Part shown: positions 22,533 through 36,597 of the stretch, in pieces
Layout of the letters: each line of letters begins with the position of its first letter
Position numbering within the stretch: the first letter of the stretch is position 1
Assembly: GCF_963676065.1 (NCBI RefSeq)
Contig: NZ_OY780933.1
Coordinates: 3,552,501 to 3,616,500 of the forward strand
Direction: 5' to 3'
Length of the DNA stretch: 64,000 bases
Source of the DNA: Maridesulfovibrio sp.
GTDB lineage: Bacteria > Desulfobacterota > Desulfovibrionia > Desulfovibrionales > Desulfovibrionaceae
The notes under the pieces: generated by a model
The model's input: only the letters and a program-made list of their open reading frames with translations
What the model was told of the DNA's origin: nothing
Database searches by the model: none
Program-made: the position numbers and the translations under genes

Positions 22533-22533
22533 G

Positions 22534-22572
22534 ATGGAAGGTTATCTAAAGGAGATTGGTTATGGTGCCTGA
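22534..22572 (+). pseudogene. Echo of the hsdM 3' end
   Basis: An in-frame relic reads MEGYLKEIGYGA and then stops. The true hsdM C-terminus reads MEGYLKELGYDLP (21181-21222). Nearly all base differences are at third positions. It lies directly before hsdS and supplies its AAAGGAGA ribosome binding site. Confidence 0.7.
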
Positions 22573-23815
22573 TGGGTGGACTCTTGGAAATCTCGGAGAT
22601 CTTGCAGAAACGCAAATGGGTTTTGCCTTCAAAAGCACGGACTTTGTTGAGCAAGGAGTTCCCTTGATCAGAATGGGGAATCTCTACCAAAACAATTTTG
22701 ATCTTTCTCGCAACCCAGTATTTCTTCCCGATACCTTTCTGGACGAATACGAAAGGTTCATATTGAAGTCTGGTGACTTGATTATGTCGCTCACAGGAAC
22801 GATTGGAAAACAGGACTATGGATTCACTATACAAATTCCGAATGAATCCCCAAGTTGCCTTTTAAACCAACGAGTAATGAAACTAATTCCTAAAGATGCA
22901 ACTGATAAGGCTTTCTTGTTGCATTTGTTAAAATCTCAAGTGGTTTTGTCCAAGTTATATTCTTTTCCAGGTGGAACCAAGCAAGCGAATCTGTCAGCAG
23001 CTCAAGTAAAGGGAATAATGATCGGTATCCCCCCTCTCCCCGAACAAAAGAAAATCGCCCGCATCCTGTCCACATGGGACAAAGCGATTGAGAAAGTGGA
23101 TAAACTGATAGAAAACAGCAAGCAGCAGAAAAAGGCTCTTATGCAGCAACTACTTACCGGGAAAAAACGGTTGCCGGGGTTCTCATCAACCTATGATTAT
23201 TGCCAAACCAAATACGGTCTCATTCCAACAGATTGGGATTTTGTAGAATTGAATAGACTTGCCAAAGAAACTGGCATGAAAAACATAAAAAATGAAAATC
23301 TTCCAGTGCTTTCATGCTCAAAGCATGAAGGCTTTGTCGACTCGCTCAAGTACTTCAAGAAAAAAGTCTACAGCGACAATCTTTCAACATATAAGTTAAT
23401 ATCACGAGGAGAACTTGGTTTCCCTTCAAATCACATTGAAGAGGGATCAATTGGACTACAAAACCTATATGAAAAAGGACTTGTAAGCCCAATATACACA
23501 GTTTTTAAACCTACTGAAAATTTATCGCGTGACTACATCTACCTTTTATTAAAAACTGAACATTATCGTCAAATATTTGCAGCACAAACTAATGCATCAG
23601 TAGATAGGCGTGGAAGTTTGAGATGGAAAGAATTTGGAAAAATTAAAGTTCCACGCCCATCAATTGCAGAGCAAAAAGCTATTTCTAAAATGATCATACG
23701 GGCAGAGACAAGGACTAAAGCACTATCAAACCATTTAGACAACCTTAAACAACAAAAACAAGCCCTCATGCAACAACTCCTAACAGGTAAACGCCGGGTA
23801 AAAATCACGGAGTAA
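22562..23815 (+). CDS. hsdS: Type I restriction-modification specificity subunit HsdS
   Basis: Recognises the bipartite target for HsdM/HsdR. The 417-residue protein has two TRDs, each followed by a conserved helix: TRD1 about 1-155 with IPPLPEQKKIARILSTWDKAIEKVDKLI after it, and TRD2 about 200-370 with IAEQKAISKMIIRAETRTKALSNHL after it. Both repeats end in KQQKQALMQQLLTGK-like sequence, a typical internal duplication. ATG 22562 was chosen for its Shine-Dalgarno; an in-frame TTG lies two codons upstream. Confidence 0.94.
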   Translation: MVPDGWTLGNLGDLAETQMGFAFKSTDFVEQGVPLIRMGNLYQNNFDLSRNPVFLPDTFLDEYERFILKSGDLIMSLTGTIGKQDYGFTIQIPNESPSCLLNQRVMKLIPKDATDKAFLLHLLKSQVVLSKLYSFPGGTKQANLSAAQVKGIMIGIPPLPEQKKIARILSTWDKAIEKVDKLIENSKQQKKALMQQLLTGKKRLPGFSSTYDYCQTKYGLIPTDWDFVELNRLAKETGMKNIKNENLPVLSCSKHEGFVDSLKYFKKKVYSDNLSTYKLISRGELGFPSNHIEEGSIGLQNLYEKGLVSPIYTVFKPTENLSRDYIYLLLKTEHYRQIFAAQTNASVDRRGSLRWKEFGKIKVPRPSIAEQKAISKMIIRAETRTKALSNHLDNLKQQKQALMQQLLTGKRRVKITE

Positions 23816-23820
23816 ATCGT

Positions 23821-24522
23821 ATGGATTTTGAAGTCTATTGTGACGAAAACTTCCCGGACCTCTTTACCAGTACCAGCCCAAAGGCTCGGTATATGATGAT
23901 TGGAGGTCTGTGGATTCCGAGCGGATTACGCTCTCATGTGAAAGAGAGCGTCTCCAATCTAAGGGAAAGGCATCAGGCGTGGGGCGAAATCAAGTGGACC
24001 AAGGTTTCACCTTCCAAGATTGATTTTTACCTCGACCTGATTGATCTCTTCTTTTCATATCAGGAGAGTATGAGGTTCCGCTGCATCGCTATCGACAGAG
24101 AAGTTTATGATGGTGCAATAAATAATGGTGACAACGAGCTTGGTTTTTACAAGTTTTACTATCAACTTATTCATCACTGGGTAGCAGACCACAACACATA
24201 TAAAATTTTCTGCGACACAAAGACAAGCAGAGATAAGACAAGATTAAGCGTATTGCATCGCTGTCTTTGTAACTCAAACCACCTTTCGCAGATCCAATCA
24301 ATTCAGGCATTGCCTTCAAAACAGGTGGTTCTGATACAACTCTGCGATCTTCTACTAGGTGCGGCAAGCAGCCGTATAAACGAGACTCTCACAGAAGGCT
24401 CTGCCAAAAGTATGCTCGTCCAACGCATCGAGAACAGGTTGGGAATCTATAAACTTGCCCCCACTTATCGCGATGCCATTAAATTTAATATCTTCAAAAT
24501 AAATCTTCAAGGAGGATGGTAA
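23821..24522 (+). CDS. DUF3800-domain protein
   Basis: The 233-residue protein starts MDFEVYCDENFPD and continues with GGLWIP and EIKWTKVS, then IFCDTKTSRDKTR and VVLIQLCDLLLGAASS. This is the conserved acidic pattern of DUF3800, which is predicted to have an RNase H-like fold with Asp/Glu metal ligands. Such proteins occur in defence and mobile loci; the activity is unproven. It follows hsdS by 5 nt and abuts the next gene. Confidence 0.78.
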   Translation: MDFEVYCDENFPDLFTSTSPKARYMMIGGLWIPSGLRSHVKESVSNLRERHQAWGEIKWTKVSPSKIDFYLDLIDLFFSYQESMRFRCIAIDREVYDGAINNGDNELGFYKFYYQLIHHWVADHNTYKIFCDTKTSRDKTRLSVLHRCLCNSNHLSQIQSIQALPSKQVVLIQLCDLLLGAASSRINETLTEGSAKSMLVQRIENRLGIYKLAPTYRDAIKFNIFKINLQGGW

Positions 24523-24984
24523 GTGCCTCCTGCCCTGCTCCATTTGGCTTCGGAGGCCGAATATAAAGCACATTTCGAAGAAAAGTATTGTGCTGGACCA
24601 TTAATCACCTTTGATGGGATTCCAGTATATTTCTCTAAGACTAAATTTTCACACGCCTTTTTCGAATGCACTCGCAGGGATGGGAATAAAAACGCGTTTT
24701 CATCTGCTCGGGCCCAAAGAATGGACTGGATCGAAACGGCCTTGAAAGATAGCACGGCCAATAGATATCAGGGCTGGGATGGTAAGAAAAGGCAGTATGA
24801 TCCAACACGGCGTGTTGCTGTCGTGATTCAAGATTTTGTTGTTGTAATCAGGATTAAAGCAAAACGTGACGGCTCTCTGAAAGCAGAATTTATCACATGC
24901 TACAAGGCCGACAACAGCATCGAGAAAATTTGCCGTTCACCTGCTTGGGATGAACAAACATGCAGAGCTGCACTTGGAGTTTGA
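24523..24984 (+). CDS. Small protein resembling PBECR-type (BECR-fold) nucleases
   Basis: A 153-residue protein whose GTG start directly abuts the DUF3800 stop codon. Conserved-looking segments are GPLITFDGIPVYFSKTKFSHAFFEC, RAQRMDWIETALKDS, YQGWDGKKRQYDPTRRVAVV and FITCYKADNSIEKI. I recognise these as similar to phage Barnase/EndoU/colicin/RelE-like proteins, but this is recollection. A paired function with DUF3800 is likely from the zero spacing. Confidence 0.55.
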   Translation: MPPALLHLASEAEYKAHFEEKYCAGPLITFDGIPVYFSKTKFSHAFFECTRRDGNKNAFSSARAQRMDWIETALKDSTANRYQGWDGKKRQYDPTRRVAVVIQDFVVVIRIKAKRDGSLKAEFITCYKADNSIEKICRSPAWDEQTCRAALGV

Positions 24985-24995
24985 GCAAAAAGAAA

Positions 24996-25063
24996 GGACG
25001 CTGATTTGCCACGCGGGTTCAGCGTCCGAGACCTCGATAGATTCAGTGCCGATTGGCATTGAA
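24996..25063 (+). other. Two hairpins before hsdR
   Basis: First stem GGACGCTGA (24996-25004) with TCAGCGTCC (25019-25027). Second stem TTCAGTGCC (25042-25050) with GGCATTGAA (25055-25063). Neither is followed by a U run, so attenuation or mRNA processing before hsdR is more likely than termination. Confidence 0.5.
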
Positions 25064-25118
25064 TTCAACTATTAAATAACTATGGCTATGACCAAGGTCA
25101 AGGGGAATATGAACTAAA

Positions 25119-28100
25119 ATGAACCAGACACCGGAAACCAAAGAAGAATACAGCGCAAAAATCCCGGCCCTACAGGTCCTTGCAAACCTCGGCTGGACAT
25201 ATATCTCCCCTTCTCAATGCATTGAAAAAAGAGGCTCTAACCGCGAAGTTCTGCTAAAGGACGAACTGATCCGTTCTCTCCAGGCACGGCGCTTTGAATG
25301 GGACGGCAAAGAGCACGCTCTTTCTCCCAATGCCATTGAGCACATTGTGCGCGACCTATCTTCACCGGGACTGCATGAAGGTTTACTCACAGCGAATGAA
25401 CGCATTTACGACAAGCTCACCCTTGGCATAACTGTAAAAGAATTCATAGACGGCAAGCCCGTTCAGCCGACCATCCCCATAATCGATTGGGAAAATCCTG
25501 AAAACAACCTGTTCCACGTCACCGAAGAAATGGACGTGCTTTCCTCGGCTGGCACGCATAGACGCATCCCTGATATAGTGTGCTTTGTTAACGGTATTCC
25601 CTTTGTGGTCATTGAGGCTAAACGCCCAGAATCCGGTAATCCGAATAAATCCATGCTGGATGAGGGTATAAGTCAGTCAATCCGCAACCAGAAGAACGAT
25701 GAGATTCCTCAGCTATTCTGCTACGCCCAGATACTCATGGCAATCAGCAATACAGATGGCCGCTACGGAACCACAAAGACAGATAAAAAATTCTGGGCCA
25801 CATGGCGCGAAGAAATCCTCGATGAATCAACCTTCCACACAATAAAGAACACACCATTATCCACAACAGCCAAAGACTCCATATTTCTAAATCGGCCTAA
25901 AGGCATGAGAAGCTATTTTGAATCACTCTGGTCGAAAGATGTGCTCCCTACGCAGCAGGATAAACTGCTCATCAGTCTGCTGAGTAAAGAACGCCTGCTC
26001 AAGATGATTCAATATTACATTATTTTCGATAAACGAGTCGGCAAAATTGTTGCCCGTTATCAGCAGGCCTTCGGAATCAAAGCCATGCTTGATCGCGTAA
26101 AGAAAACAGACAAGAACGGAAGTCGTGAGGGCGGTGTCATCTGGCACACCACAGGTTCCGGCAAGTCTTTTACTATGGTCTTCCTAAGCAAGGCATTGCT
26201 TCTTGATCCTGAGCTCAGAGACTGCCGTATTTTCATCGTTACAGATCGTCTGGACCTTGAAAAACAGCTTTCCAGAGTATTTCTGACCGGAGGTGCCTTC
26301 GGCTCAGCGGTTGCGACCAAAAAAGAAGGCGAACGGGCAAAGGTTCGTTCTGGACGGGATCTTGCCCAGCGCATTGGTAAAGGTGATGACCGCATCATAT
26401 TTTCAATCATTGATAAATTCAATACCGCTTCAAAATTGCCGGAGTGCTATAACCCAAGTGATAAAATTATCGTTCTGGTAGATGAAGGACACCGTAGCCA
26501 CGGAGGGGAAACCCATGAACGTATGCGCAAGGCTCTGCCAAACGCATCATACATAGCTTTCACCGGAACGCCCCTGCTCAAAAAAGACAAGACGCAGAAT
26601 AAATTCGGTCCTATCATTCATGCTTACACAATGCAGCGTGCAGTTGAAGACGGAACAGTGACTCCCCTGCTCTATGAGGAACGCCGCCCGGAACTGGATG
26701 TGAACGAAAAAGCCATCGACAAATGGTTCGACAGAATTACACTTCGCCTAAAAGATAAACAGAAGACTGACCTCAAAAAGAAATTCGCCAATAAAGGAGC
26801 TGTGTATGGTTCCGAGAACCGTATTGAACTTATTGCGTGGGATATAGCAACGCATTTCGCGGATAATATCAAATCGCTAGGCATGGGCCTCAAAGGACAG
26901 TTGGCTACAGACTCCAAGCTTTCAGCAATCCGTTATAAAAAATATCTGGATGAGACAGGACTGGTCACAAGCGCGGTGATAATATCCCCACCGGATACAC
27001 GGGAAGGACACTCCTCTGTTGATGAATCGGCCCTTCCAGAAGTACAGAAATGGTTTAAGAAGGCTGTCGGCAACAGCGCAAATGCTGAACAATATGAACG
27101 AGATGTAATTGAAAGTTTTGGAACTGATGATGGAGTGGATATCCTTATCGTGGTGGACAAACTCCTCACAGGATTTGATGAGCCAAGAAACACCGTTCTT
27201 TATATTGATAAGCCATTGAAAGAGCATAACCTGCTACAGGCTATCGCCCGAGTTAACAGACTGCATGAAGCCAAAGATTACGGTCTGTTAATTGATTACC
27301 GTGGAATACTGAAAGAACTGGATACTACCTTGAAACAGTATCAGGACCTTCAGGAACGAACACAAAGCGGCTTTGATATGGACGATATCGAAGGCTTGTA
27401 TCATCAGGTGGATACGGAATACAAAAAGCTCCCTGACCTTCATAAAAGACTTTGGAGAATATTCAGCGAAGTTGAAAACAGGAAAGATCTTGAGCAATAC
27501 CGTCAGGTGCTCATGCCTCAATATACTGAGGACGAAGATGGCAGCAGCTTGGATCTTCGTCAGAAGGTGCGAGAAGATTTCTATCAGGCTCTAACGCAAT
27601 TTGGACTTTGCCTCAAAATAGCACTGTCGTCGCGTTCTTTCTTTGAAGACGGCAGTTTCAGCGAAAAGGATATCGCCAGATACAAAAGTGACCTCAAATT
27701 CTTCACCAATCTTCGCAAAATTGCCCGGCAGGATGCACAAGAAACAGTTGACTACAGTGCATACGAAGAGCAGATAAGACGGCTCGTTGATAAACATGTT
27801 GTTGGTGAATCGATAGCTGAACCGGAAGGAATTGTCCTCATCAATGAATTAGGAACGGAAGATCCTTCGGAGTGGACTAAGGAAAAGACCCGCAACGAAA
27901 CAGATATCATCCGAACCAGAGTAAGAAAGACAATCGAACAGGAACTGAATAACGATCCTTACGCCCAGAAAGTCTTTTCAGAACTTCTGAAGGACGCAAT
28001 CTCACAGGCCGAGAAAATGTTCGAGCATCCCTTTAAGCAATACACCCTATTCAAAGATTTCGAAGAACAGCTAAATAGCCGAGCAATGGCGGGAATTCCT

Positions 28101-28409
28101 AAGGAACTCAATGAAAGTGAAACAGCAAAAGCATACTACGGTACTTTCAGACTTGTTTTAGGTGAAGACCATTTCAAAGCCATCAAGCCGGAAGAAGAAA
28201 AGCAACTCATTGATGAAGCGATTGCCATCGACTCCATTGTAGGAACCGCTGTAGTAGAACACTCTCTGAGTCCGCAGGCAATGGAATCAACAATACATAA
28301 AGGACTGCTACCGCGCCTTTTCAAAATCATCGGACTTGATAAAGCCAAAGACGTCATTGAACACATTATACAGATAACCAGAGTGCGTCTGACTCATGGG
28401 AAAAAATAG
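25119..28409 (+). CDS. hsdR: Type I restriction endonuclease subunit HsdR
   Basis: Motor and nuclease subunit that translocates unmodified DNA and cuts at a distance. The 1096-residue protein has an N-terminal PD-(D/E)XK nuclease (IPDIVCFVNGIPFVVIEAKRP) and SF2 helicase motifs: I TGSGKSFTMVF (about 344), II VDEGHRSHGG, III FTGTPLL, and V-VI GFDEPRN and QAIARVNR. A helical C-terminus follows. Length is normal and no disruption is visible. It completes an intact R-M-S set. Confidence 0.96.
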   Translation: MNQTPETKEEYSAKIPALQVLANLGWTYISPSQCIEKRGSNREVLLKDELIRSLQARRFEWDGKEHALSPNAIEHIVRDLSSPGLHEGLLTANERIYDKLTLGITVKEFIDGKPVQPTIPIIDWENPENNLFHVTEEMDVLSSAGTHRRIPDIVCFVNGIPFVVIEAKRPESGNPNKSMLDEGISQSIRNQKNDEIPQLFCYAQILMAISNTDGRYGTTKTDKKFWATWREEILDESTFHTIKNTPLSTTAKDSIFLNRPKGMRSYFESLWSKDVLPTQQDKLLISLLSKERLLKMIQYYIIFDKRVGKIVARYQQAFGIKAMLDRVKKTDKNGSREGGVIWHTTGSGKSFTMVFLSKALLLDPELRDCRIFIVTDRLDLEKQLSRVFLTGGAFGSAVATKKEGERAKVRSGRDLAQRIGKGDDRIIFSIIDKFNTASKLPECYNPSDKIIVLVDEGHRSHGGETHERMRKALPNASYIAFTGTPLLKKDKTQNKFGPIIHAYTMQRAVEDGTVTPLLYEERRPELDVNEKAIDKWFDRITLRLKDKQKTDLKKKFANKGAVYGSENRIELIAWDIATHFADNIKSLGMGLKGQLATDSKLSAIRYKKYLDETGLVTSAVIISPPDTREGHSSVDESALPEVQKWFKKAVGNSANAEQYERDVIESFGTDDGVDILIVVDKLLTGFDEPRNTVLYIDKPLKEHNLLQAIARVNRLHEAKDYGLLIDYRGILKELDTTLKQYQDLQERTQSGFDMDDIEGLYHQVDTEYKKLPDLHKRLWRIFSEVENRKDLEQYRQVLMPQYTEDEDGSSLDLRQKVREDFYQALTQFGLCLKIALSSRSFFEDGSFSEKDIARYKSDLKFFTNLRKIARQDAQETVDYSAYEEQIRRLVDKHVVGESIAEPEGIVLINELGTEDPSEWTKEKTRNETDIIRTRVRKTIEQELNNDPYAQKVFSELLKDAISQAEKMFEHPFKQYTLFKDFEEQLNSRAMAGIPKELNESETAKAYYGTFRLVLGEDHFKAIKPEEEKQLIDEAIAIDSIVGTAVVEHSLSPQAMESTIHKGLLPRLFKIIGLDKAKDVIEHIIQITRVRLTHGKK

Positions 28410-29139
28410 AACGATTATGCAAACACTTACATATGGTGACGAAAAGATACGTTACCAAGTTTGCCACGTGCCCGGCAAAAAAACTAAAGTAGCGATCCAC
28501 GTTCACCCAGATGGATCTGTTCAAGTTGATGCTCCATTAAACGCTGAAATTACACAGATCAAGGAAGCAGTCCAAAAACGGGCAAGATGGGTAATGGAAC
28601 ATCTCATCCGAAACCGTGAAATACGAGCAAATGTTCTTCCAAGGGAATATATCAGTGGAGAAAGCTACTTCTACCAAGGCCGCAGACATCAACTTAAGGT
28701 AATTAAAAATCAAGAACAAAAATCCCAAGTGCGCCTTTATAGAGGACAATTACAAGTTACGACAGAAAATGCTTCTCCAGAACGAGTAAAGAAACTCCTG
28801 CAACGCTGGTATAAGGATCGAGCTAAAGCTTATTTTGAAAAGCGTTTACTCGATATAGTTTCAAAAACTCCCTGGCAAAGTGATGTCCCGCAATGGCGAC
28901 TGCTGACAATGAAAAAACAATGGGGAAGCTGCTCTCCCAAAGGTACGCTTTCTCTAAATCCGCATCTTGTCAAAGCTCCAAGAGAATGCATTGATTATGT
29001 TCTTACTCATGAATTGTGCCACCTTCAGGAGCACAACCACAGTCCCAGATTCTATCGCCTTCTTACAGAGCGCATACCTGAATGGAAATCAGTCAAAGCA
29101 AAGCTGGATGGTATGTCTGAAATGTTACTAAATGAATAA
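28396..29139 (+). CDS. YgjP-like (DUF45) metallopeptidase
   Basis: A 247-residue protein with a zinc-binding HELCHL motif (THELCHLQEHNHSPRF) and the upstream MKKQWGSCSPKG, both typical of the YgjP/DUF45 family related to SprT. It overlaps the hsdR 3' end by 14 nt, so it belongs to the restriction operon; M48/YgjP-like proteases are frequent hsdR companions. Possibly it trims HsdR or relieves restriction, by inference. A second ATG at 28417 is possible. Confidence 0.87.
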   Translation: MGKNRTIMQTLTYGDEKIRYQVCHVPGKKTKVAIHVHPDGSVQVDAPLNAEITQIKEAVQKRARWVMEHLIRNREIRANVLPREYISGESYFYQGRRHQLKVIKNQEQKSQVRLYRGQLQVTTENASPERVKKLLQRWYKDRAKAYFEKRLLDIVSKTPWQSDVPQWRLLTMKKQWGSCSPKGTLSLNPHLVKAPRECIDYVLTHELCHLQEHNHSPRFYRLLTERIPEWKSVKAKLDGMSEMLLNE

Positions 29140-29165
29140 AAATAAATAGTTGTATTTACCATAAC

Positions 29166-29202
29166 AGGCTGGTTGAGGAATTGTCCTTAGCCAGCCTTTT
29201 TT
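29166..29202 (+). terminator. Intrinsic terminator ending the restriction operon
   Basis: Stem AGGCTGGTTGAGGA with TCCTTAGCCAGCCT (a few G-U pairs), followed by six T. Confidence 0.88.
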
Positions 29203-29360
29203 ATGCCCATCAAATCAGCAGATCCCCCTTTGTCCATCCCGCTCTCACCTCATAAATCACACCACAAAAAAAGATAAAAATCTGTAATATATAGCAATAC
29301 TCTAAATATCTGAGCAGAGCCCGAAACATAAAATTAAATTAAATCATATCAGCATATTAC

Positions 29361-29383
29361 ATTTAACCCTCACTACAAAGTAA
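29361..29383 (+). promoter_or_regulatory. T3-like promoter motif P0
   Basis: ATTTA, ACC, CTCACT: 13 of 14 bases match the upstream part of the phage T3 promoter as I recall it. The initiation region (ACAAAG) lacks the GGG of T3. Confidence 0.5.
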
Positions 29384-29429
29384 GAACACGGAAAATTACA
29401 GAGCATTTAATAAGTGAAATCCAAAATTT

Positions 29430-29452
29430 AATTAGGGCGCACTTAATAAGCA
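29430..29452 (+). promoter_or_regulatory. K11-like promoter motif P1
   Basis: AATTA, GGG, CGCACT, then TAATAAGC. It differs from the recalled Klebsiella phage K11 promoter by one base in the first 14. Confidence 0.6.
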
Positions 29453-29466
29453 AGCCATCAATCCCA

Positions 29467-29489
29467 AATTAAGACGCACTGGTAAGCAA
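29467..29489 (+). promoter_or_regulatory. Phage-type promoter motif P2
   Basis: AATTA, AGA, CGCACT, then GGTAAGCAAG. Same spacing as P1, 18 bp before the polymerase fragment ATG. Confidence 0.6.
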
Positions 29490-29506
29490 GTACACGGTCA
29501 GGCTCT

Positions 29507-29926
29507 ATGCCAGCCCTTAAGCGTCTCGTGGAAGACGTAAAGGCAGCCGCAAAGAAACGAGGGTATCTCCGTGGACTCGACGGCAGACGTCTTCATGTAC
29601 GCTCTGAACACTCTGCACTCAATACACTCCTCCAGTCGGCTGGTGCGCTCATCATGAAGGAAGCCACGGTAATCCTGTGGCGTGACCTACATGAGCGTGG
29701 AGACCTTGTGATGCCTAAGTTTCCGGCACACGAGCCTACCGAAGTGGACCTATGGCAAGCCGCTCATGTCCATGACGAATACCAGTTGATTGTGAAGGAA
29801 GACCTTGCTGACGAGATCGGGCCTCTGGCTGTCAATGCAATCGTCAAGGCTGGTCAGTCGTTTAACTTCCGGTGTCCTCTCGACGGCGAATATCAAGTCG
29901 GCAGGAACTGGGCAGAAACCCATTAG
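29507..29926 (+). pseudogene. C-terminal fragment of a T7-like family A DNA polymerase
   Basis: The 139 residues align with the end of T7 gp5: GYLRGLDGRRLHVRS, HSALNTLLQSAGALIMK, HVHDEYQLIV (motif C with its catalytic Asp) and FNFRCPLDGEYQVGRNWA. Motifs A and B, the exonuclease domain and most of the palm are missing, and an in-frame stop lies 8 codons upstream, so polymerase activity is excluded. The open frame itself is intact and begins right after two promoter motifs. It may be a relic, or a retained peptide with another use. Confidence 0.88.
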
Positions 29927-29937
29927 GAGAAACAAAG

Positions 29938-30204
29938 ATGGAAGCATCATACAAATATATCGAAGAAAAGAAATTCAGACCCGTCACCCTTACCGTTGAA
30001 ATCAAGAACGAAGAGGAGCTTCTCGACCTCTATCACAGGCTCGAAGCGCGTGACGTTATCGACGTGCAGCTTATGGATGGACGTGAGTTCTCTCTCCCGA
30101 AAAATCATTCATATCCTTTGAGACGCAAGCTTCGCAAAATCATTTTCGAAAGCGGCCTCCAGGAAACCACACCAGTAAACTACGAAGACCCTATCGGATG
30201 GTAA
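29938..30204 (+). CDS. Unknown 88-residue protein
   Basis: Starts at ATG 29938 behind TTAGGAGA, directly after the polymerase fragment. Acidic/basic mixed sequence (YKYIEEKKFRPVTLTVEIKN) with no recognised domain. In T7-like genomes small genes numbered 5.x stand in this place; the equivalence is positional only. Confidence 0.65.
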   Translation: MEASYKYIEEKKFRPVTLTVEIKNEEELLDLYHRLEARDVIDVQLMDGREFSLPKNHSYPLRRKLRKIIFESGLQETTPVNYEDPIGW

Positions 30205-30216
30205 GGAGTGAACGTC

Positions 30217-30441
30217 ATGCTTAAACTTAAGAAGAAAACCGGAGAAGAACTCCTGACAGAAGCTACTGCCTTCGTTGAGAAAACCATAGATCAACTCGAC
30301 GCAGCCGCAGAGAAACTCAATGAGGAAGCTGATGAAGTCGAACGTCAGATCATTGAGCTTCAAGATAAGAGCGACAAGCTCAACGGTCAGTATCTGCAAG
30401 CAGCAAGAATGAAAGAAAAGTTCGAGCAGCTTCTGTATTAA
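30217..30441 (+). CDS. Short coiled-coil protein
   Basis: Seventy-four residues, almost wholly heptad-like and charged (VEKTIDQLDAAAEKLNEEAD...). ATG 30217 was chosen because TAAGGAG lies 8 nt before it; an in-frame GTG at 30208 would add three residues. Unknown function. Confidence 0.65.
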   Translation: MLKLKKKTGEELLTEATAFVEKTIDQLDAAAEKLNEEADEVERQIIELQDKSDKLNGQYLQAARMKEKFEQLLY

Positions 30442-30455
30442 AATCAGCGTCTTAG

Positions 30456-30478
30456 AATTGGGGCGCACTATGTAACCA
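30456..30478 (+). promoter_or_regulatory. Phage-type promoter motif P3
   Basis: AATTG, GGG, CGCACT, then ATGTAACC. Same spacing as P1. A 5-bp hairpin (CAGCC/GGCTG) and a terminator follow within 75 bp. Confidence 0.6.
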
Positions 30479-30509
30479 GCCCGACGGCTGACGAAAGATA
30501 GGCAATGAG

Positions 30510-30550
30510 AAAGAGGTGGATCACTCCAAGTGGTCTGCCTCTTTTCTTTT
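30510..30550 (+). terminator. Terminator-like hairpin between P3 and the antirepressor gene
   Basis: Arms 30510-30524 and 30530-30543 (AAAGAGG outer pairing) are followed by a T-rich tract. It lies upstream, not downstream, of the nearest ORF, so P3 transcripts would be short or attenuated. Confidence 0.65.
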
Positions 30551-30605
30551 GGTCAACCAATCAACCACCAACAGAATTTCAAAAGAAAAAGAAAGGAGAA
30601 AAATT

Positions 30606-31721
30606 ATGAGCACCAACATTTCTAAAATCAACATCAACGCTTGTGAGTCCGTACAGTACGAAATCGACAACTGGGCAATCATCCGTGGTCTCTCCAGTAA
30701 AGAACATGGAAAGCTCTATCTCTGTGAGGACATCAACAATGTGTTTGAAGAACCTGCACACGCTACTCACTCTGGTGAGAGCAATGGTAATGTTCTCTTC
30801 TTCTACGATGAACAGACTGTCCGTAAGATGCTGATGGATTCCGGTAAGGAAGAGTTCATGGATTACCTCGACATTGAAGAAGATGTGAAACCCGCAGCAC
30901 TGACTCCGGTTCGCCATGAGGAAGTTGAAGTGTGTGGCGCAACAGTCCTTGCAGCGGTGACTGAGGACGGTAAAGCGTATTTCTCTCCGAGGCATTTGTG
31001 TGAAGCGTTGGGTATTGCATGGCCTCGTCAGTTCACCAAGATCAAGTCTGATCCGGTCCTCGGAAGTTCTGTTACCGAAATGGTAACGGAAGTGAACCGT
31101 GCTGACACAGGGAATAAAACCACACGCAAAACAACAATGCTCCCCATCGAGTTTGCTAGTGGCTGGCTGTTCACCATCAAGAAGGTACGTCCCGAAGTAC
31201 AGCACAAGCTGAATATGTTCCGTGCCGAAGCGTTCCACGTTCTCGACCTCTGGTTCCGTCAGGGGTTCAAGAAGAACAAAATGGTACAGGCCGCTCTCGA
31301 CCTCCCCGACTTCAACGATCCGGTAGCCGCAGCACGAGCATGGGCTGACCAAGTGGAAAAGCGTCAGGCTCTCGAAGCTAAGAACAAGAAGCTTGCTCCG
31401 AAAGCAAAAGTCTACGACGCAACCTTCGCAAAGAAACTGTCTCCTCTCCAGGTCGTCGTTCGGAAACTCCGTGGTGTAAACACCATGAAGATCAAGAGTG
31501 ACCTTCTGGACGCTGGATACCTTTATAAAAGAGGTGGCGTTTACCGTGTTTACTCCCAGTACCGCGATAAGGCGTTCGTTGAGAAGTTTGATCCCCGGTA
31601 CAACCGCACTGAAATCTACGCGCTCGATAAGGGCAAACAGAAGATCGTCGAACTGTACCGTGCTGGGCGTCTGTCCATGAAGAATGGTTGCGAGAACGCT
31701 TACCGTAACTTCAAGGGGTAG
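30606..31721 (+). CDS. Phage antirepressor (P22_AR_N-like with C-terminal KilAC-like domain)
   Basis: The 371-residue protein has a central antirepressor domain (about 100-220): GATVLAAVTEDGKAYFSPRHLCEALGI, MLPIEFASGWLFTIKK, then VRPEVQHKLNMFRAEAFHVL. A C-terminal domain (about 290-350, LSPLQVVVRKLRG to VYRVYSQY) looks like an ANT/KilAC helix-turn-helix. Such proteins bind and inactivate phage repressors. The first 100 residues are unfamiliar. The start is ATG 30606 behind AAAGGAGA. Confidence 0.83.
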   Translation: MSTNISKININACESVQYEIDNWAIIRGLSSKEHGKLYLCEDINNVFEEPAHATHSGESNGNVLFFYDEQTVRKMLMDSGKEEFMDYLDIEEDVKPAALTPVRHEEVEVCGATVLAAVTEDGKAYFSPRHLCEALGIAWPRQFTKIKSDPVLGSSVTEMVTEVNRADTGNKTTRKTTMLPIEFASGWLFTIKKVRPEVQHKLNMFRAEAFHVLDLWFRQGFKKNKMVQAALDLPDFNDPVAAARAWADQVEKRQALEAKNKKLAPKAKVYDATFAKKLSPLQVVVRKLRGVNTMKIKSDLLDAGYLYKRGGVYRVYSQYRDKAFVEKFDPRYNRTEIYALDKGKQKIVELYRAGRLSMKNGCENAYRNFKG

Positions 31722-31724
31722 CTC

Positions 31725-31868
31725 ATGGAAACTCTACTCGAACTCATAGCGTGGTTCTTTGCAGGATGGCTCACAGCCCTTGCCATATCAGGCTTAGTGG
31801 GAGTGGGCATACTCACTGCCTGTCTCTACAAGGAACTTAAAAAATGGCGAGGTAAGCGTAATGGATAA
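31725..31868 (+). CDS. 47-residue single-span membrane protein
   Basis: ATG 31725 to TAA 31868 encodes METLLELIAWFFAGW, a hydrophobic stretch to about residue 34, then the basic tail YKELKKWRGKRNG. It starts 3 nt after the antirepressor stop and its end overlaps the exonuclease start by 8 nt, which supports real translation. Unknown role. Confidence 0.65.
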   Translation: METLLELIAWFFAGWLTALAISGLVGVGILTACLYKELKKWRGKRNG

Positions 31869-32652
31869 CCGTGTCGCAATCATCGACGGTGACATCCTTG
31901 CCTACCAGATAGCATCCAGAGAGGAGAAACCGATCAACTGGGGTGACGGCTTCTGGACCCTTCATGCAGAACAAGGGCCAGCCGAAGTTGCTCTGGAGGA
32001 TCGCGTTCTCCAACTCCAGGAAACCCTTAAGTCAGACAGGGTAATCATTGCTCTGTCTGACGACGACTACAACTTCCGAAAGGACGTCTATCCGAAATAC
32101 AAAAGTAACCGGAAGGAGAAGCGCAAGCCAATGATCCTTCCGGTTCTCAAAGAGTTCCTTATGGAAACCTTTGAAACCTTTCGGCGTCCTGGGCTTGAAG
32201 GTGACGACATTCAGGGAATACTGGCTACCTCCAAGGTGATCCTTAAGGCAAAGGAAAAGATCATCGTATCACTGGATAAGGACATGAAGACCATCCCCGG
32301 TCTTTTCTACAACTTCGGGAAACCTGAACTGGGTGTCATGGAGATCACTGAGGACGAAGCAGATTACTGGCACCTCCTCCAGACACTGACCGGAGATACC
32401 ACAGATGGTTATCCCGGTTGTCCCGGTGTTGGCCCGAAGAAAGCCGAGAAGCTTCTCGCTGAACATTTCACTGAGACTGACGACGGGATTGTCCTTGAGA
32501 CGTCTATGGATGAAGTGTGGGCAGACGTGGTTGCTGCCTTCGAGAAAGCCAAGCTCGGTGAAGAAGAGGCTCTGACTCAGGCGCGTGTGGCGAGAATCCT
32601 TCGTGCCTCTGATTATGACTTTAAGAAATATCAACATAAACCACTAAAATAA
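31861..32652 (+). CDS. T7 gp6-like 5'-3' exonuclease
   Basis: The 263-residue protein parallels T7 gene 6 exonuclease along its length: an early DGDILAYQ, RKDVYPKYKSNRK, GLEGDDIQGILA, VSLDKDMKTIPG, DYWHLLQTLTGDTTDGYPG with the helix-hairpin-helix GVGPKKAEKLL, and terminal RILRASDYDF. The acidic metal-binding residues are present. In T7 this enzyme degrades host DNA, removes RNA primers and promotes recombination. It lies downstream of the polymerase fragment, as gene 6 follows gene 5. Confidence 0.9.
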   Translation: MDNRVAIIDGDILAYQIASREEKPINWGDGFWTLHAEQGPAEVALEDRVLQLQETLKSDRVIIALSDDDYNFRKDVYPKYKSNRKEKRKPMILPVLKEFLMETFETFRRPGLEGDDIQGILATSKVILKAKEKIIVSLDKDMKTIPGLFYNFGKPELGVMEITEDEADYWHLLQTLTGDTTDGYPGCPGVGPKKAEKLLAEHFTETDDGIVLETSMDEVWADVVAAFEKAKLGEEEALTQARVARILRASDYDFKKYQHKPLK

Positions 32653-32674
32653 AACATCATTATCAAAAAAAAAG

Positions 32675-32697
32675 AATTACCACGCACTGAATAAGAA
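32675..32697 (+). promoter_or_regulatory. Phage-type promoter motif P4
   Basis: AATTA, CCA, CGCACT, then GAATAAGA. It lies 23 bp after the exonuclease gene, the place where T7 carries promoter phi6.5. Confidence 0.6.
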
Positions 32698-32811
32698 TAT
32701 ACCAAAAAGACTACAACCTGAGCAGGCCACGCAATCAATGTGGTCAATCTCAGTTTACATACACCCCCTTTGGCATGGGCAGGATTGCACTTAAGCGTCC
32801 TGCCCTTTTTC
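32698..32811 (+). ncRNA. Candidate short structured RNA ending in a terminator
   Basis: Downstream of P4 lies a nested hairpin (CTGAG 32718-32722 with CTCAG 32749-32753, GGCCAC 32725-32730 with GTGG 32740-32743). It is followed by a strong intrinsic terminator (GGGCAGGA 32777-32784 with TCCTGCCC 32798-32805 and five T). No ORF precedes the terminator. It could be an independent RNA or an attenuating leader of the ATPase gene. Confidence 0.45.
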
Positions 32812-32933
32812 TATTTCAACGGCCTAACGCCACAAAAAACATGGAGAAATTCAATGCGAATGACCTCAACCAATCGTCAAGTGCCCTGTACGAATCGACC
32901 CTCAAACCAAACTTCAAAAAGATGGAGGTAGCC

Positions 32934-33965
32934 ATGAGCGATGAATTAAGAGCCCCTTCATTGAATACTCTGCTGAACATGGAATTCCCGCCACGAGAAC
33001 ACCTTTTAAAACCTTGGCTCCGGGATGGAGAAAGTGCAATGATTTACGCTTCACCGGGAGTAGGTAAATCAATGCTGACTCTGACCCTGGCTCTTGTCAT
33101 AGCTGGAGGCGGTGAATTTATGGGATGGAAAGCTCCAAAGCCCCGCAAAGTCTTATTCGTAGATGGTGAGATGCATATTCAGGACATCATTGACCGAGCC
33201 ACTCTACTCCTGTCTGGACTCGATATTGATATTGAAGTCGCAACCCAGAATATGACTATCCTTGCTCGGCAATATCAGCTGCCGGAAGCAGAATTCCCCG
33301 ATCTTGCGTTCGAAGAAGGACGAGACTGGATGCTGGATTTCGCTACAATGGGTGACAGTGATGATCAGTACGATGCAGAGAAATATGATCTTGTTATTCT
33401 CGACAACCTTTCAACTCTGGCATCCATCAAAGACGAGAACGACGCAGGAGACTTCAACGAGGTTCTCCAGTTCCTGATGAAACTTAAACAGGCAAAGGTA
33501 GCTTGTATTCTCGTTCATCATTCAAATAAGAACGCAAACAACTATCGTGGTTCTTCGAAGCTTGCCACGACCTTTGAGGTTATCCTCGGTCTCAAAGCGG
33601 TTGAATCGATCCAATCAAACGGGACGTCCTTCAAATTGTGCTGGGATAAGTTCCGTTGTCCGCGAGACGAGACTATTCAAGAGCGGGAGGTATGGCTGGA
33701 GCCAAACGAAGAACTTGGCGCTATCTGGAAGTCACAACAGTCCAAGGACGACCAGATCCAGACCATAATCAATATGCTCAAGACTCTGGAGTATCCGACA
33801 CAGGATGCCCTCTGCAAAGCATTGCCGTTTAAATGCAATAAAGGGACACTGTCCAAGTTGAAAAAGCGGGCCATTGCTAATGACTACATCAGTAAAAAAG
33901 ACTGGGATGAATTGCTTTCTATGGCAGCAGACAATCAGAAGCAGGGTGAAGATGAAGAACAGTAG
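32934..33965 (+). CDS. RepA-like AAA (RecA-fold) ATPase
   Basis: The 343-residue protein has Walker A ASPGVGKSMLT (about residues 40-50), a FVDGEM strand, Walker B YDLVILDNLS, LVHHSNKNA and YRGSSKLATTFE, the pattern of the AAA_25/RepA hexameric helicase-like family. The C-terminus carries a winged-helix-like segment (LCKALPFKCNKGTLSKLKKRA). It probably acts in island or phage DNA replication. ATG 32934 was chosen for its GGAGGT; in-frame ATGs lie upstream at 32922 and about 32841. Confidence 0.85.
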   Translation: MSDELRAPSLNTLLNMEFPPREHLLKPWLRDGESAMIYASPGVGKSMLTLTLALVIAGGGEFMGWKAPKPRKVLFVDGEMHIQDIIDRATLLLSGLDIDIEVATQNMTILARQYQLPEAEFPDLAFEEGRDWMLDFATMGDSDDQYDAEKYDLVILDNLSTLASIKDENDAGDFNEVLQFLMKLKQAKVACILVHHSNKNANNYRGSSKLATTFEVILGLKAVESIQSNGTSFKLCWDKFRCPRDETIQEREVWLEPNEELGAIWKSQQSKDDQIQTIINMLKTLEYPTQDALCKALPFKCNKGTLSKLKKRAIANDYISKKDWDELLSMAADNQKQGEDEEQ

Positions 33966-34133: not shown

Positions 34134-34823
34134 ATGTCAACACCTTCAAGGATTCGTCTCGCCCAATGCAGAACATCAAGAAGAACATGTGATGTCCCCG
34201 GTTGTTACAATCCCAGTCAGAAATGGGGACGCTACTGTGAAATACATGATGACCGTTGCCAGCGCACAGGCCATCCTCAAGGTCATACTGTAGGGAAAAG
34301 AGAGCTCTCACCTTACTTGTCCTCGGTCAATAGGTTCATTGAAGAGCACGAACATCATCCAGCCATAGAAGGAGCATGTAACGTGCTTCAACGTCTTCTG
34401 GACTCAGCTCGCCCCAAACGAGTCAGGTCAGGAGAGATGGCTCCATGGCAGAGAACAAATAACTGGTTAGTTCATCTAAGGGAAAATAAAGTCACTCCCC
34501 AAGAAATGCTGGCAACCATCGTCGCCATGTTCCTCTATCAGGAATTGGACCCAGCAAACTTCAGGAGTGACAGACACTTCAGGCATCAATTGGTTGTCAG
34601 GCTTTTACGCCTGGCTCCAACAAAAAGAGATCATACAACTCATTTCAGGCAAGATCGCATCACGGTAGGCGTTCGGGATTTTCTTTCCGAGCGCCTTTGC
34701 CATTCCAAGCTCGGCGCACTGGCGCTGAGGATCGCTAAACATATCGCGCAGGATGAAAACAAGAAGCACGACTTCCTGCGCTGCGATATTGACGGATACC
34801 ACGTGCCCTTTAGCCACAACTAA
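34134..34823 (+). CDS. Unknown protein with an N-terminal Cys/His cluster
   Basis: The 229-residue protein has four Cys and a His arranged as C-x6-C-x4-C...C-x2-H within residues 12-35 (CDVPGCYN, YCEIHDDRC). This resembles the zinc-binding knuckle found ahead of phage HNH nucleases and some DNA-binding proteins. No HNH motif follows. The rest is helical and basic. AAGGAGG precedes the ATG. Possible nucleic-acid-binding protein. Confidence 0.7.
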   Translation: MSTPSRIRLAQCRTSRRTCDVPGCYNPSQKWGRYCEIHDDRCQRTGHPQGHTVGKRELSPYLSSVNRFIEEHEHHPAIEGACNVLQRLLDSARPKRVRSGEMAPWQRTNNWLVHLRENKVTPQEMLATIVAMFLYQELDPANFRSDRHFRHQLVVRLLRLAPTKRDHTTHFRQDRITVGVRDFLSERLCHSKLGALALRIAKHIAQDENKKHDFLRCDIDGYHVPFSHN

Positions 34824-34843
34824 AAATATAAGGAGTTAAACCT

Positions 34844-35473
34844 ATGAATAAAAACATTACCTTTGCCAACGACTGCGAACTGACAGACATCCTGATTGCT
34901 ACTCTGGAAAATGAGTATGAAGACTATGACTGCAAAATGGAAAAACTCTTGGACTGGTGCGAGCAAGAAACCGGACTCCAGCTTCAGTGTATTACTGAAT
35001 ATGCAGAAGCGATCGTCAAATCGACTATGGAATCTCGCCGTGAATTGGGCGAACGGATGAATGAATTCATGCCTAAGATTCAGTTACTGGATGACCTTCG
35101 TGCAGCCTACAGGAAGGAAGTGGAACGCCTGAAAGGTGAACTGGACTTCTCCGACTTTGATGAGGTCGTTTCAGTCTTAACAGCGCTGGAATATGTCAAA
35201 CAGACTGATTCTGAATTGGCGGCTGAGGCTTTTGGCGCGTTCTGCTCAATGGCACCTGGAGAAATCAAAGAAATGATCGACGACAAATTAGCAGAGATGT
35301 TCCCTGGAATTCAGCTTACCCATCACGATTCCCAAGGCAATGTGTTTTACTCACTTGGCAATATAACCAATGAGCTGAACGTCTCAGTCGAAGAGATCAA
35401 TACGATGATTAACAAAGGTGAGATCGAGATGATCGACGGCAGAAAGCTATCTTCAATCTCAACAAACAACTAA
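34844..35473 (+). CDS. Unknown acidic helical protein
   Basis: A 209-residue, strongly acidic, Leu/Glu-rich protein with no recognised domain. The C-terminal part (NITNELNVSVEEINTMINKGEIEMIDGRKL) looks like a small helix-turn-helix. AAGGAG precedes the ATG. It follows the Cys-cluster gene by 20 bp, so it is probably in the same transcription unit. Confidence 0.65.
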   Translation: MNKNITFANDCELTDILIATLENEYEDYDCKMEKLLDWCEQETGLQLQCITEYAEAIVKSTMESRRELGERMNEFMPKIQLLDDLRAAYRKEVERLKGELDFSDFDEVVSVLTALEYVKQTDSELAAEAFGAFCSMAPGEIKEMIDDKLAEMFPGIQLTHHDSQGNVFYSLGNITNELNVSVEEINTMINKGEIEMIDGRKLSSISTNN

Positions 35474-35746: not shown

Positions 35747-36424
35747 GTGGACGGAAAATTCGTATCCTACCTTCGTGTGAGCACAGAAAAACAGGGACGA
35801 AGTGGTCTTGGCATCGAGGCCCAACGCAAGGCAGTCGAAGACTATCTCAATGGCGGTCAGCTGGAACTTCTTGAAGAATACGTCGAAGTTGAGAGCGGAA
35901 AGAATGATGACCGTCCTGAACTGAAGCAAGCTCTTGAGTATTGTGATTTGACTGGAGCCACACTCCTTATCGCAAAGCTCGACCGTCTGTCTCGTGACGC
36001 ATACTTTTTGCTCGGTCTTCAACGTTCTGGTGTCCGCTTTGTATGTGCCGATATGCCTGAAGCCAACGAGCTTACAGTAGGTATTATGGCGTTAATGGCA
36101 CAGGAAGAGCGTAAACGTATTTCAGAGCGAACAAAAGCTGCTCTGGCTGCTGCAAAATCCCGAGGTGTTAAGCTAGGTAATCCTAAAGGAGCTGAACATC
36201 TCCGAGGACTTGGAAACGGTCCTGCTGTCAAAAAGATCAAGGCCAATGCAAATCATAATGCAGAACGCCTTCGTGGTCAGATTACCAAACTGCTCGAACA
36301 AGGGATCACCAGCGCCAATGGGATTGCGACGGAGCTCAATAGAAACAGCATCAGAACTCTTCGTGGAGGTAAATGGTATGCTGCCAGCGTTCAACGATTA
36401 CTGAAACGTCTTGAGCTGGCTTAA
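35747..36424 (+). CDS. Small serine recombinase (resolvase/invertase family)
   Basis: Catalyses strand exchange through a serine nucleophile. The 225-residue protein begins VDGKFVSYLRVSTEKQ with Ser12 as likely nucleophile. It continues through KLDRLSRDAYFLLGL and LMAQEERKRISERTKAALAAAKSRG to a C-terminal helix-turn-helix (ITSANGIATELNRNSIRTLRGGKWYAASVQRLL). GTG 35747 was chosen because AAAAGGAG lies 6 nt before it. It sits just inside the right island end, while a tyrosine integrase sits at the left. Confidence 0.93.
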   Translation: MDGKFVSYLRVSTEKQGRSGLGIEAQRKAVEDYLNGGQLELLEEYVEVESGKNDDRPELKQALEYCDLTGATLLIAKLDRLSRDAYFLLGLQRSGVRFVCADMPEANELTVGIMALMAQEERKRISERTKAALAAAKSRGVKLGNPKGAEHLRGLGNGPAVKKIKANANHNAERLRGQITKLLEQGITSANGIATELNRNSIRTLRGGKWYAASVQRLLKRLELA

Positions 36425-36580: not shown

Positions 36581-36597
36581 TCCCACCCTCTCCGCCA
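36581..36597 (+). repeat. Island attachment repeat, right copy
   Basis: Exact 17-bp copy of the tRNA-Ser 3' end, including CCA, without the rest of a tRNA. Confidence 0.9.

Follow-up and report, generated by a model that had tools for sequence, protein, structure and literature searches.

The window (the whole stretch of 64,000 nucleotides that was analysed) holds a discrete integrative element of 20.1 kb, 16437-36597, delimited by att repeats. The 17-nt sequence of attL, at the 3' end of a tRNA-Ser gene, is repeated exactly and in direct orientation at 36581. A discrete integrated unit with its own integrase and att repeats, as is required of a phage satellite, is therefore present. In Rfam, the tRNA alone scored above the gathering score between 16000 and 37000. 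The boundaries, recombination genes and cargo are as follows.

16363-16453, +, tRNA-Ser(CGA) (ARAGORN); its 3' end, 16437-16453, is attL, TCCCACCCTCTCCGCCA
16542-18236, +, tyrosine integrase (Pfam: DUF6538, 8.6e-16; Phage_integrase, 2.7e-11)
19098-28409, +, type I restriction-modification (RM) cargo region (Pfam; PADLOC REase_I and MTase_I), with the six genes below (all Pfam)
19098-19703, +, hsdS-like
19708-21222, +, hsdM
21501-22532, +, RhuM
22556-23815, +, hsdS
23821-24522, +, DUF3800
25119-28409, +, hsdR
28396-29139, +, YgjP-like metallopeptidase, cargo (Pfam, 4.2e-61)
35747-36424, +, serine recombinase (resolvase; domain search), with 94-95% identity to those of the three sister islands described below
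36581-36597, +, attR, exact 17-nt direct repeat of attL

Between cargo and recombinase lie phage-derived genes, a row of promoter-like sites (called from the sequence) and an operon headed by an AAA_25 gene.

29361-29384, +, T7-class promoter-like site with what we take to be a T3-like core, ATTTAACCCTCACTACAAAGTAAG
29394-29414, +, degenerate promoter copy, AATTACAGAGCATTTAATAAG
29430-29451, +, T7-class promoter, AATTAGGGCGCACTTAATAAGC
29467-29487, +, T7-class promoter, AATTAAGACGCACTGGTAAGC
29507-29926, +, C-terminal fragment of a T7-like DNA polymerase (gp5), 139 aa (PF00476, 2e-10; phrog_17, 1.7e-30)
29938-30204 and 30217-30441, +, two small ORFs (ORF calls)
30456-30477, +, T7-class promoter, AATTGGGGCGCACTATGTAACC, then a terminator-like hairpin, 30509-30545
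30606-31721, +, phage antirepressor, P22_AR_N + ANT (Pfam, 1.3e-26 for P22_AR_N; phrog_63, 2e-13)
31861-32652, +, gp6-type 5'-3' exonuclease, full-length, 263 aa (phrog_107, 1.5e-64)
32675-32696, +, T7-class promoter, AATTACCACGCACTGAATAAGA, 5' of AAA_25
32702-32810, +, structured leader between promoter and AAA_25, with a GC-rich hairpin (32777-32805) and a T run at its end
32937-33965, +, AAA_25 RepA-like helicase, start inferred (Pfam, 5.9e-29)
34134-34823, +, ORF1, Cys/His-rich N terminus, 74-77% identical in the sister islands
34844-35473, +, ORF2, 99% identical in G308 and 87% identical in G324, with no match in G071

The phage-derived segment

The sequence-only reading recognised a piece of T7-like genome here, and the gp5 fragment, the antirepressor and the full-length gp6-type exonuclease do stand in T7 order. 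The polymerase fragment is the C-terminus of a family-A polymerase, covering profile positions 251-381 of 381 in PF00476. The antirepressor, whose P22_AR_N match lies above the Pfam cut-off and whose ANT match (0.0022) lies below it, had been taken for a flanking gene. This placement has to be given up: in G305 and G239, both prophages, homologues lie between polymerase and exonuclease, in G179 and G221 just 5' of the polymerase, and the gene thus appears to belong to the phage segment. The two small ORFs (29938-30441) had no tblastn match at E <= 1e-3 in the compared phage and sister-island loci; one of them (about 30208-30441) is coiled-coil-like, with weak matches to head or tail PHROGs (E 0.05-0.08). 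In PH, a T7-like viral contig of 37,935 bp (loci L020, L050 and L051), the gene order is polymerase, promoter, another gene, exonuclease. DNA identity between window and PH is 76.5% over the polymerase fragment and 77.3% over the exonuclease, the latter being 82% identical as protein.

Is the rest of the phage present? As the earlier reading had it, the surroundings carry no structural genes: no structural or terminase family exceeded the Pfam cut-off in 19 element ORFs (PHROGs covered 10 of those, and some ORFs of 60-70 aa were outside the scan), the weak Phage_TAC_3 match at 34844-35473 (E 0.04) being under it. A T7-like capsid gene gave no tblastn match in the window or in the sister-island loci (G071, G324 and G308), nor did T7 RNA polymerase (RNAP) in those three loci. 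The RNAP was also without a match in the host genome (G000), with a query that, at E <= 1e-30, had matches in 6 of 288 genomes of the family; an earlier search of G000 had no matching control genome, and the repeat had these positives. Thus the single-subunit RNAP and structural genes that define a T7-like prophage or its remnant were not found, and the related islands gave no sign of the complete T7-like prophages that the earlier reading had named as the outcome counting against a satellite.

Promoter sites and their distribution

A promoter after the exonuclease had been noticed before and is there (32675), as one of six promoter-like copies rather than a single one (29361, 29394, 29430, 29467, 30456 and 32675). 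The motif AATTNNNNCGCACT occurs in four exact copies in the 64 kb, all on the + strand and within 29430-32688, and two of these four 14-mers are identical to copies in PH. The 29430 promoter with its flanks (29427-29455) equals PH 7977-8005 in 28 of 29 positions. Immediately 5' of the gene 5 fragment stand two promoters; PH has none at that place. One of the two resembles, flanks included, a promoter located after the PH RNAP gene. PH has five such promoters on its sense strand and prophage G305 also has five; in both, one lies just 5' of the RNAP gene and two just 3'. An AATT-N6-CACT frame, on the same strand and intergenic, is common to the window sites and these RNAP-encoding phages, and it agrees with what we take to be the T7/T3/SP6-type consensus. 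By these features the window motifs are T7-class promoters, for which transcription by a cognate RNAP is predicted.

How specific is the pattern? The motif ATTN6CACTN3-4AAG, which was picked for density counts after the sites had been seen, has 3+4+3+4=14 exact copies upstream of AAA_25 in the four islands (10.9 kb), with none on the opposite strand of those regions, none in the other cellular sequence compared (579,064 strand-bases) and a mean of at most 0.017 per region in shuffled sequence. With one mismatch the counts are 24 in the island regions (0 antisense) versus 27 in the other 579 kb. A strict pattern matched 28 times in 288 genomes; the four islands account for 7 of these and prophage G305 for 4, and the other 17 are each solitary in the surrounding stretch. 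Its backwards control gave 4 matches; because the 17 isolated ones exceed this, the strict pattern by itself is not clean and clustering alone is.

Sister islands, arrays and operon

The three sister islands (G071, G324 and G308) reside in two other genera and have in common with the window the att repeat, the integrase, AAA_25 and the recombinase. The 17-nt repeat flanks all three; their integrases adjoin tRNA-Ser and share 70-71% protein identity with that of the window, and AAA_25 is 82% identical. Cargo in each differs from the window's, and across these unlike cargoes element size is 20.1-23.5 kb. PADLOC found RM or BREX genes in three of the four islands; in G324, neither of the 2 scanned large cargo ORFs (4 are present) is a defence gene. 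The suggested look for islands elsewhere with the same gene set and flanks thus recovers the backbone, but not the cargo, and the T7 genes are mostly cut or lost: in all three sister islands the exonuclease is truncated, with about 144 or 42 residues left, and the polymerase fragment has 139 residues in G324, 92 in G071 and no tblastn match in the G308 locus. Since most sister islands have them shortened or missing, the fragment being as long as the window's in G324 alone, polymerase fragment and exonuclease were rejected as conserved working parts. Their history also seems to be mixed. The G071 exonuclease is 91.5% identical in DNA to that of phage G305 versus 79.6% to that of the window, which points to phage segments acquired or refreshed more than once and disfavours a single ancient capture; transfer from an island to the phage lineage would fit these identities as well.

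The promoters behave differently. Each sister island has 5-7 promoter-like copies 5' of AAA_25, on a single strand and with several specificity cores; spacing within islands is irregular, and G308 packs as many as 7 copies into about 1.2 kb. Each compared phage has one core class and each island several, as if listening for many viruses. Among the core classes in the arrays are CG, CC, TTG and T3-like CCT, with an SP6-like GA in a distant relative. For the alternative cores, phages were scarce. Scanning for GGCCCACT yielded 102 stretches in which the matches were isolated, with no repeated core and no RNAP there, and scanning for A-RVVCV-CACTAGTAAG yielded no match; GTTGCACT matched at least 120 stretches, and among the matches listed was a single T7-like phage, L211, which carries the sequence twice and has an RNAP.

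The same 8 AAA_25 carriers were recovered in an order-wide search (348 genomes) and in the family search. In the more distant G047 locus (AAA_25 44% identical), three same-strand copies of another class (AGCGGA, AGGGGA or GGGTGA, with CACT) lie 5' of AAA_25 and none matches the density-count motif; they fall within a unit of about 150 bp that is repeated and are therefore partly duplications, not independent captures. An array is absent from the 1.8 kb upstream in three of the eight genomes with close relatives, G077, G028 and G277 (AAA_25 45-47%); G028 has one isolated TT-N6-CACT there. E. coli genomes gave no match, nor did phage records for a 93-bp element. A search for the empty site with the right-flank kinase gene matched many paralogues and was hence uninformative.

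Downstream of the last promoter, the leader folds with a minimum energy of -34.5 kcal/mol, and the three sister islands have similar leaders. A simple terminator scan did not list its hairpin (32777-32805), and terminator-like sites in 29100-33000 (6 versus 4.5 by chance) are not above chance. ORF1 had no PDB sequence match under E 0.1 and no fold match (best E 1.5), and the structure models of ORF1 and ORF2 are of low confidence (mean pLDDT 57.8 and 42.6).

A proposed response to infection, its rivals and known systems

What would such a promoter row do in a genome without a detected cognate polymerase? The row matches the promoters of T7-type viruses, and an infecting virus would therefore probably activate the island with its own RNA polymerase. 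The islands are best read as a family of phage satellites, or of defence islands, in which an infecting T7-like phage transcribes the replication operon directly with its RNAP. That the window holds the satellite form, a tRNA-Ser mobile element with its core operon behind T7-like promoters, transcribed by the helper and packaged in helper particles, we regard as likely. We also lean, with somewhat less assurance, towards mobile islands of a new family, which detects infection through transcription by the intruder's single-subunit RNAP, its array drawn from several phage specificities. The sequence-only reading of an element with RM genes aboard that exploits or reacts to an infecting T7-like phage gains from the promoter identity, the lack of an RNAP match in the host and the three sister islands; the weight it put on genes 5 and 6 is misplaced, as the T7 genes look like baggage and the promoter array like the working part.

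Boundaries, the identity of the promoters with those of phages, their orientation and clustering, the missing polymerase match and the recurrence of islands with diversified cores are observed; the transcription, induction, replication, excision and packaging that we infer would run as follows. As long as the cell is uninfected, the core operon behind the single-subunit RNAP promoters (AAA_25 helicase, ORF1, ORF2 and serine recombinase) would be silent, and the terminator-like hairpin may protect AAA_25 from host read-through. Upon entry of a T7-like phage, or induction of a prophage, the phage polymerase would transcribe the element from whichever promoter fits, so that mixed cores would let one island answer several phages. 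Replication and excision would follow, then transfer in helper particles; the promoters may also prime DNA synthesis, like T7 origins. Meanwhile, RM- or BREX-type cargo would protect the host and the element's niche.

A defence island triggered by phage, in which the promoters activate AAA_25 and perhaps other genes and abort or hinder infection without particle transfer, would account for the RM or BREX genes, for the lack of a capsid-related gene above the cut-off in the scanned ORFs and for the absence of AAA_25 relatives in a close-relative scan of viral contigs, where a match would have been a hint of packaging. Yet the promoters lie 3' of the cargo and 5' of the phage-derived genes and AAA_25, not 5' of the RM genes, and integrase, att sites, the near-identical recombinase and an ORF2 conserved at 99% across genera point to mobility; we hold this reading to be unlikely. 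Phage DNA without a present role, either as a decayed prophage of T7-like type (the alternative already raised from the sequence) or as a passive insertion, is improbable. This reading fits the fragmentary polymerase, the exonuclease truncated in three of four islands and the differing left ends of the polymerase fragment. However, the four islands share a non-T7 backbone (prophage G305, in the 35 kb read, lacks the integrase, AAA_25 and recombinase), promoters persist and diversify while T7 genes decay, two stand where PH has none, and each island has several core classes against one per phage; a deletion remnant of one prophage was rejected as the main reading on the shared backbone and the several classes. 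Same-strand repeats 5' of a RepA-like gene could also be iterons to which replication proteins of the element itself bind, and not promoters. This is rejected as very improbable because phages without a match to this AAA_25 use the same sequences, at promoter positions; unlike cores in one island, irregular spacing and the presumed T7/T3/SP6-type frame also speak against it. That the array is a decoy titrating phage RNAP and slowing the phage is hardly credible, even with the dense copies of G308, as 5-7 chromosomal sites would be few against replicating phage genomes and the conserved leader and downstream coding operon suggest productive transcription.

How does the proposed satellite compare with known systems? 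PH and G305 share its promoters and, together with LUZ100, a phage with temperate features, its polymerase-regulator-exonuclease segment, but these phages carry RNAP and capsid genes, neither of which was found in the island. Tycheposons and VEIMEs, marine integrative elements proposed to be phage satellites, resemble it in integration, tyrosine recombinase and variable cargo; we know of no T7-type promoter arrays in either. To our knowledge, known satellites sense their helpers via repressors or activators. SaPI/PICI and PLE are integrated and helper-induced, with an integrase, a replication gene and accessory cargo, and the island is like them in all of these, helper induction being proposed here. 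SaPIs are de-repressed once phage proteins bind Stl, according to PMC6695447, whereas the island would be transcribed directly by the helper polymerase. No Stl or AlpA regulator family appeared among the scanned ORFs, in a search not aimed at these and with the smallest ORFs outside it. The available portion of PMC10803314 describes PICMI, of Vibrionaceae and virulent phages, as helper-activated, without capsid remodelling genes and packaged as concatemers in full-size particles. Judged from sequence, the island would be alike in the first two respects; PICMI, however, is a minimal int-alpA-prim element of about 6 kb (about 1/8 of the genome of its helper, phi115) in that portion, which has no mention of helper-polymerase promoters, and the 20.1-kb island with its other gene set does not belong there. 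Tycheposons and VEIMEs are named as satellites in PMC11389934. In open-access full texts (most subscription papers and preprints being outside this scope) no published match for the mechanism was found.

Direct wiring to the helper polymerase, if true, would differ from known modes of induction and be simple in its logic; phage escape would be hard, as the polymerase and all its promoters must change together. Mixed arrays make testable how one element tracks several helper phages, a long-standing question. They offer a sequence signature for finding satellites of T7-like phages, naturally diversified promoters for orthogonal polymerases and, if the reading is true, an evolutionary record of the T7-like phages a lineage met. 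The islands would then parallel, in bacteria, the virophages that use helper promoters.

An integrative element around the phage segment

The source genome (G000) is one contig of 4.23 Mb, on which the window occupies positions 3552501-3616500. The T7 gene 5 to gene 6 segment recognised in the sequence-only reading is borne out, with a gene-5 C-terminus, an antirepressor and a full-length gp6-type exonuclease all found.

29507-29926: C-terminus of T7 gene 5 (pol fragment)
30606-31721: antirepressor
31861-32652: gp6-type exonuclease, full-length
34134-35473: ORF1 and ORF2, conserved proteins

What carries this segment? It is enclosed in an integrative element of 20.1 kb, whose ends are marked by a 17-nt repeat of the tRNA-Ser(CGA) 3' end (16437 and 36581). 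The element runs from tRNA-Ser through a tyrosine integrase, a type I restriction-modification (RM) system with RhuM and DUF3800, a YgjP-like metallopeptidase, the phage segment with its promoters, an AAA_25 helicase, ORF1, ORF2 and a serine recombinase to attR, past which lie a histidine kinase and metabolic genes. Among the element ORFs searched (19 with Pfam, 10 with PHROGs), none matched a structural or terminase family above the Pfam cut-off, and weak structural-type matches were limited to two small proteins. ORF1 and ORF2 have no Pfam match over the cut-off, and a search for a solved structure matching ORF1 found none; the two likely provide core functions of the element.

The element also holds a 93-bp non-coding sequence with hairpins (24993-25085, sense on the - strand; z-score of a 116-nt fold, -4.2). 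PH, a T7-like phage contig, has a counterpart ahead of its capsid gene with 92.5% identity, whereas coding genes are far less alike (77%). The 93-bp sequence recurs in G028, another genome carrying AAA_25, where 71 bp at 94% identity precede an hsdR-like gene with a DUF3800-like neighbour (names read from translations); it therefore seems to be part of the RM cassette.

T7-class promoters and their phages

There are exactly four copies of AATTNNNNCGCACT in the window, all of them on the + strand and inside 29430-32688. Judged by sequence, these motifs are T7-class promoters. Which polymerase could read them? The window's genome has no match to the single-subunit, T7-type RNA polymerase (RNAP), although the search was positive for 6 of the 288 genomes from the family (E <= 1e-30). 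By exonuclease, the nearest viral contig is the 37.9-kb PH (82% protein identity), which encodes such an RNAP. PH carries the motif at five places on its sense strand: one just before the RNAP gene, two just after it, one after the polymerase gene and one ahead of the connector and scaffold genes (our reading), with a Gp10A-like capsid gene beyond; the other strand has one. Together with its flanks, one window site (29427-29455) matches PH 7977-8005 at 28 of 29 bases. G305, a prophage in another family genome, has RNAP, polymerase, exonuclease (83%) and capsid genes and again five sense-strand copies. Were phage RNAP to transcribe the island promoters, it would trigger the element as a satellite, and this trigger-plus-mobility reading is the one we favour as probable.

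Several side observations concern these phages. Translations of PH show a putative tyrosine-integrase-like gene ahead of RNAP, a DNA polymerase gene in two parts with an HNH-like ORF between (L050/L051), and a LAGLIDADG-like ORF after the capsid gene; the last two arrangements point to probable introns with homing endonucleases. T7-like RNAP, polymerase and exonuclease genes also occur in G179 (L085), G221 (L086/L087/L324) and G239 (L084) of the same family; G221 is a single-contig genome with promoter copies AATTAGGTTGCACTAAGTGGAAG and GATTAGGTTGCACTAAGCGGAAG. A further family member, the 5.3-Mb genome G333 (L339), encodes a divergent T7-type RNAP (30% identity, residues 384-854), and the promoter patterns tried had no match in the 20 kb read there.

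The six bases before CACT distinguish T7, T3, SP6 and K11 promoters. This core is uniform in the phages compared and mixed in the islands.

Cores before CACT in phages and islands (G071, G324 and G308 are sister islands)
PH and G305: AAGACG/AGGGCG, 5/5 sense-strand copies in each
L211: AGGTTG, 2/2
G221: AGGTTG, both sense-strand exact copies
Window: AACCCT, AGGGCG, AAGACG, GGGGCG, ACCACG, plus one degenerate copy
G071: AAGTTG (two), AAGGCC, ACCCCC, GGGGCC, AACCCT
G324: AACACC, ATGGCC, AAGTTG, AGGGCC, AACCCT
G308: AAGACC, AAGGCC (two), AACCCT (two), AACCCA, TGTCCC

AACCCT is the T3 core. The pattern used caught the RNAPs of four out of nine sources (PH, G305, L211 and G239); ahead of the PNFVHS motif, their loop is nearly the same in PH and G305 and different in L211, which would be expected if each core is matched to its polymerase.

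Sister islands and the persistence of promoters

Of the 288 family genomes, 8 carry close AAA_25 relatives (at least 44% identity, E <= 1e-40), and an order-wide search of 348 returned the same eight; weaker homologues are frequent (E <= 0.001 in 41 of 148 relatives). Three of the eight, from two other genera, are sister islands that share the window element's tRNA-Ser site and its repeat, and their integrase (70-71%), AAA_25 (82%) and recombinase (94-95%) resemble those of the window. ORF2, not found in the G071 island, is 99% identical between window and G308, which suggests recent exchange between genera.

Cargo of the four islands
G000: type I RM
G071 (21.0 kb): type III-like methylase with ResIII protein; OLD-like ATPase
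G324 (20.2 kb): antiporter and hybrid histidine kinase (two of four large cargo ORFs scanned); the other two resemble signalling proteins
G308 (23.5 kb): BREX genes BrxA, BrxB, BrxC, PglX fragment, PglZ

In G308 (L317) PglX is in pieces, with ORFs that we read as transposase-like nearby on the opposite strand. That such islands serve defence only is the main rival to the triggered satellite, though an unlikely one. Of the four remaining carriers (G077, G028, G047 and G277), three, G077, G028 and G277, have no promoter array within 1.8 kb of AAA_25, which counts against generality. The more distant G047 locus (44%) has three same-strand copies upstream of AAA_25, with AGCGGA, AGGGGA and GGGTGA before CACT in an SP6-like frame; they fail the motif ATT-N6-CACT-N3/4-AAG and, lying in a repeated unit of ~150 bp, arose at least in part by duplication.

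Across the islands T7 genes decay while the predicted promoters stay. The exonuclease is reduced to its first 144-145 residues in G071 and G324 and to a 42-residue scrap in G308; the pol fragment keeps 139 residues in G324 and 92 in G071 and was not found in the G308 island. G308 nevertheless has seven promoter-like copies (six in ~340 bp before the antirepressor, one before AAA_25). G071 carries six and G324 five; in both, a single copy follows the pol fragment and the others lie between exonuclease remnant and AAA_25. A decayed prophage fits less well than a satellite triggered by phage RNAP, and we hold it improbable.

The motif ATT-N6-CACT-N3/4-AAG, defined after examples were seen, has 14 exact copies in the 10.9 kb from the four islands, every one on the sense strand; the other cellular sequence compared, 579,064 strand-bases, contains none. 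Allowing one mismatch raises the counts to 24 and 27, respectively. A stricter pattern matched 28 times in the 288 genomes: the four islands account for 7 matches, the G305 prophage for 4, and 17 lie elsewhere, each of these solitary within the sequence covered around it (up to 1.5 kb each side). The backwards control, with 4 matches, stayed below these 17, and the argument therefore rests on clustering and not on single matches. Iterons, very improbable, and a decoy, the least credible reading, also fit less well than the triggered satellite.

Origin, transcription and known systems

Where do the phage segments come from? The G071 exonuclease (codons to about 144) shares 91.5% DNA identity with phage G305 and 79.6% with the window, although AAA_25 of window and G071 are 78% identical, and a single old capture therefore fits poorly. 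Island segments were probably acquired, or renewed, from T7-like phages in circulation; transfer of the exonuclease segment from island to phage is possible. The window has promoters directly ahead of the gene-5 fragment, one resembling a PH promoter that follows the RNAP gene, and PH has none there, so this region looks assembled piecewise.

Each of the four islands has the same arrangement downstream of its promoter closest to AAA_25: a structured leader and a GC-rich hairpin with a T run come before the coding region. In PH and G305, a strong hairpin with a T run separates the post-pol promoter from the next gene. Within 29100-33000, a simple terminator scan detected the hairpin at 30509 and missed the one before AAA_25; terminator-like sites (6 against 4.5 by chance) are not above chance and sigma-70-like sites (2 against 4.1) are below it. 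Phage RNAP tolerates many such terminators. We infer that host transcription would be excluded and that phage RNAP would pass the hairpins.

As for mobility, T7 reportedly packages plasmids bearing a T7 origin and a concatemer junction (Chung and Hinkle 1990). No AAA_25 relative turned up when viral contigs were scanned for close relatives, which counts against packaging. Among the open-access full texts searched, no satellite induced via helper-polymerase promoters appeared; one may exist in print elsewhere. The PICMI paper (PMC10803314) describes a different system, and the review of hitchhiking elements (PMC11389934) covers different systems.
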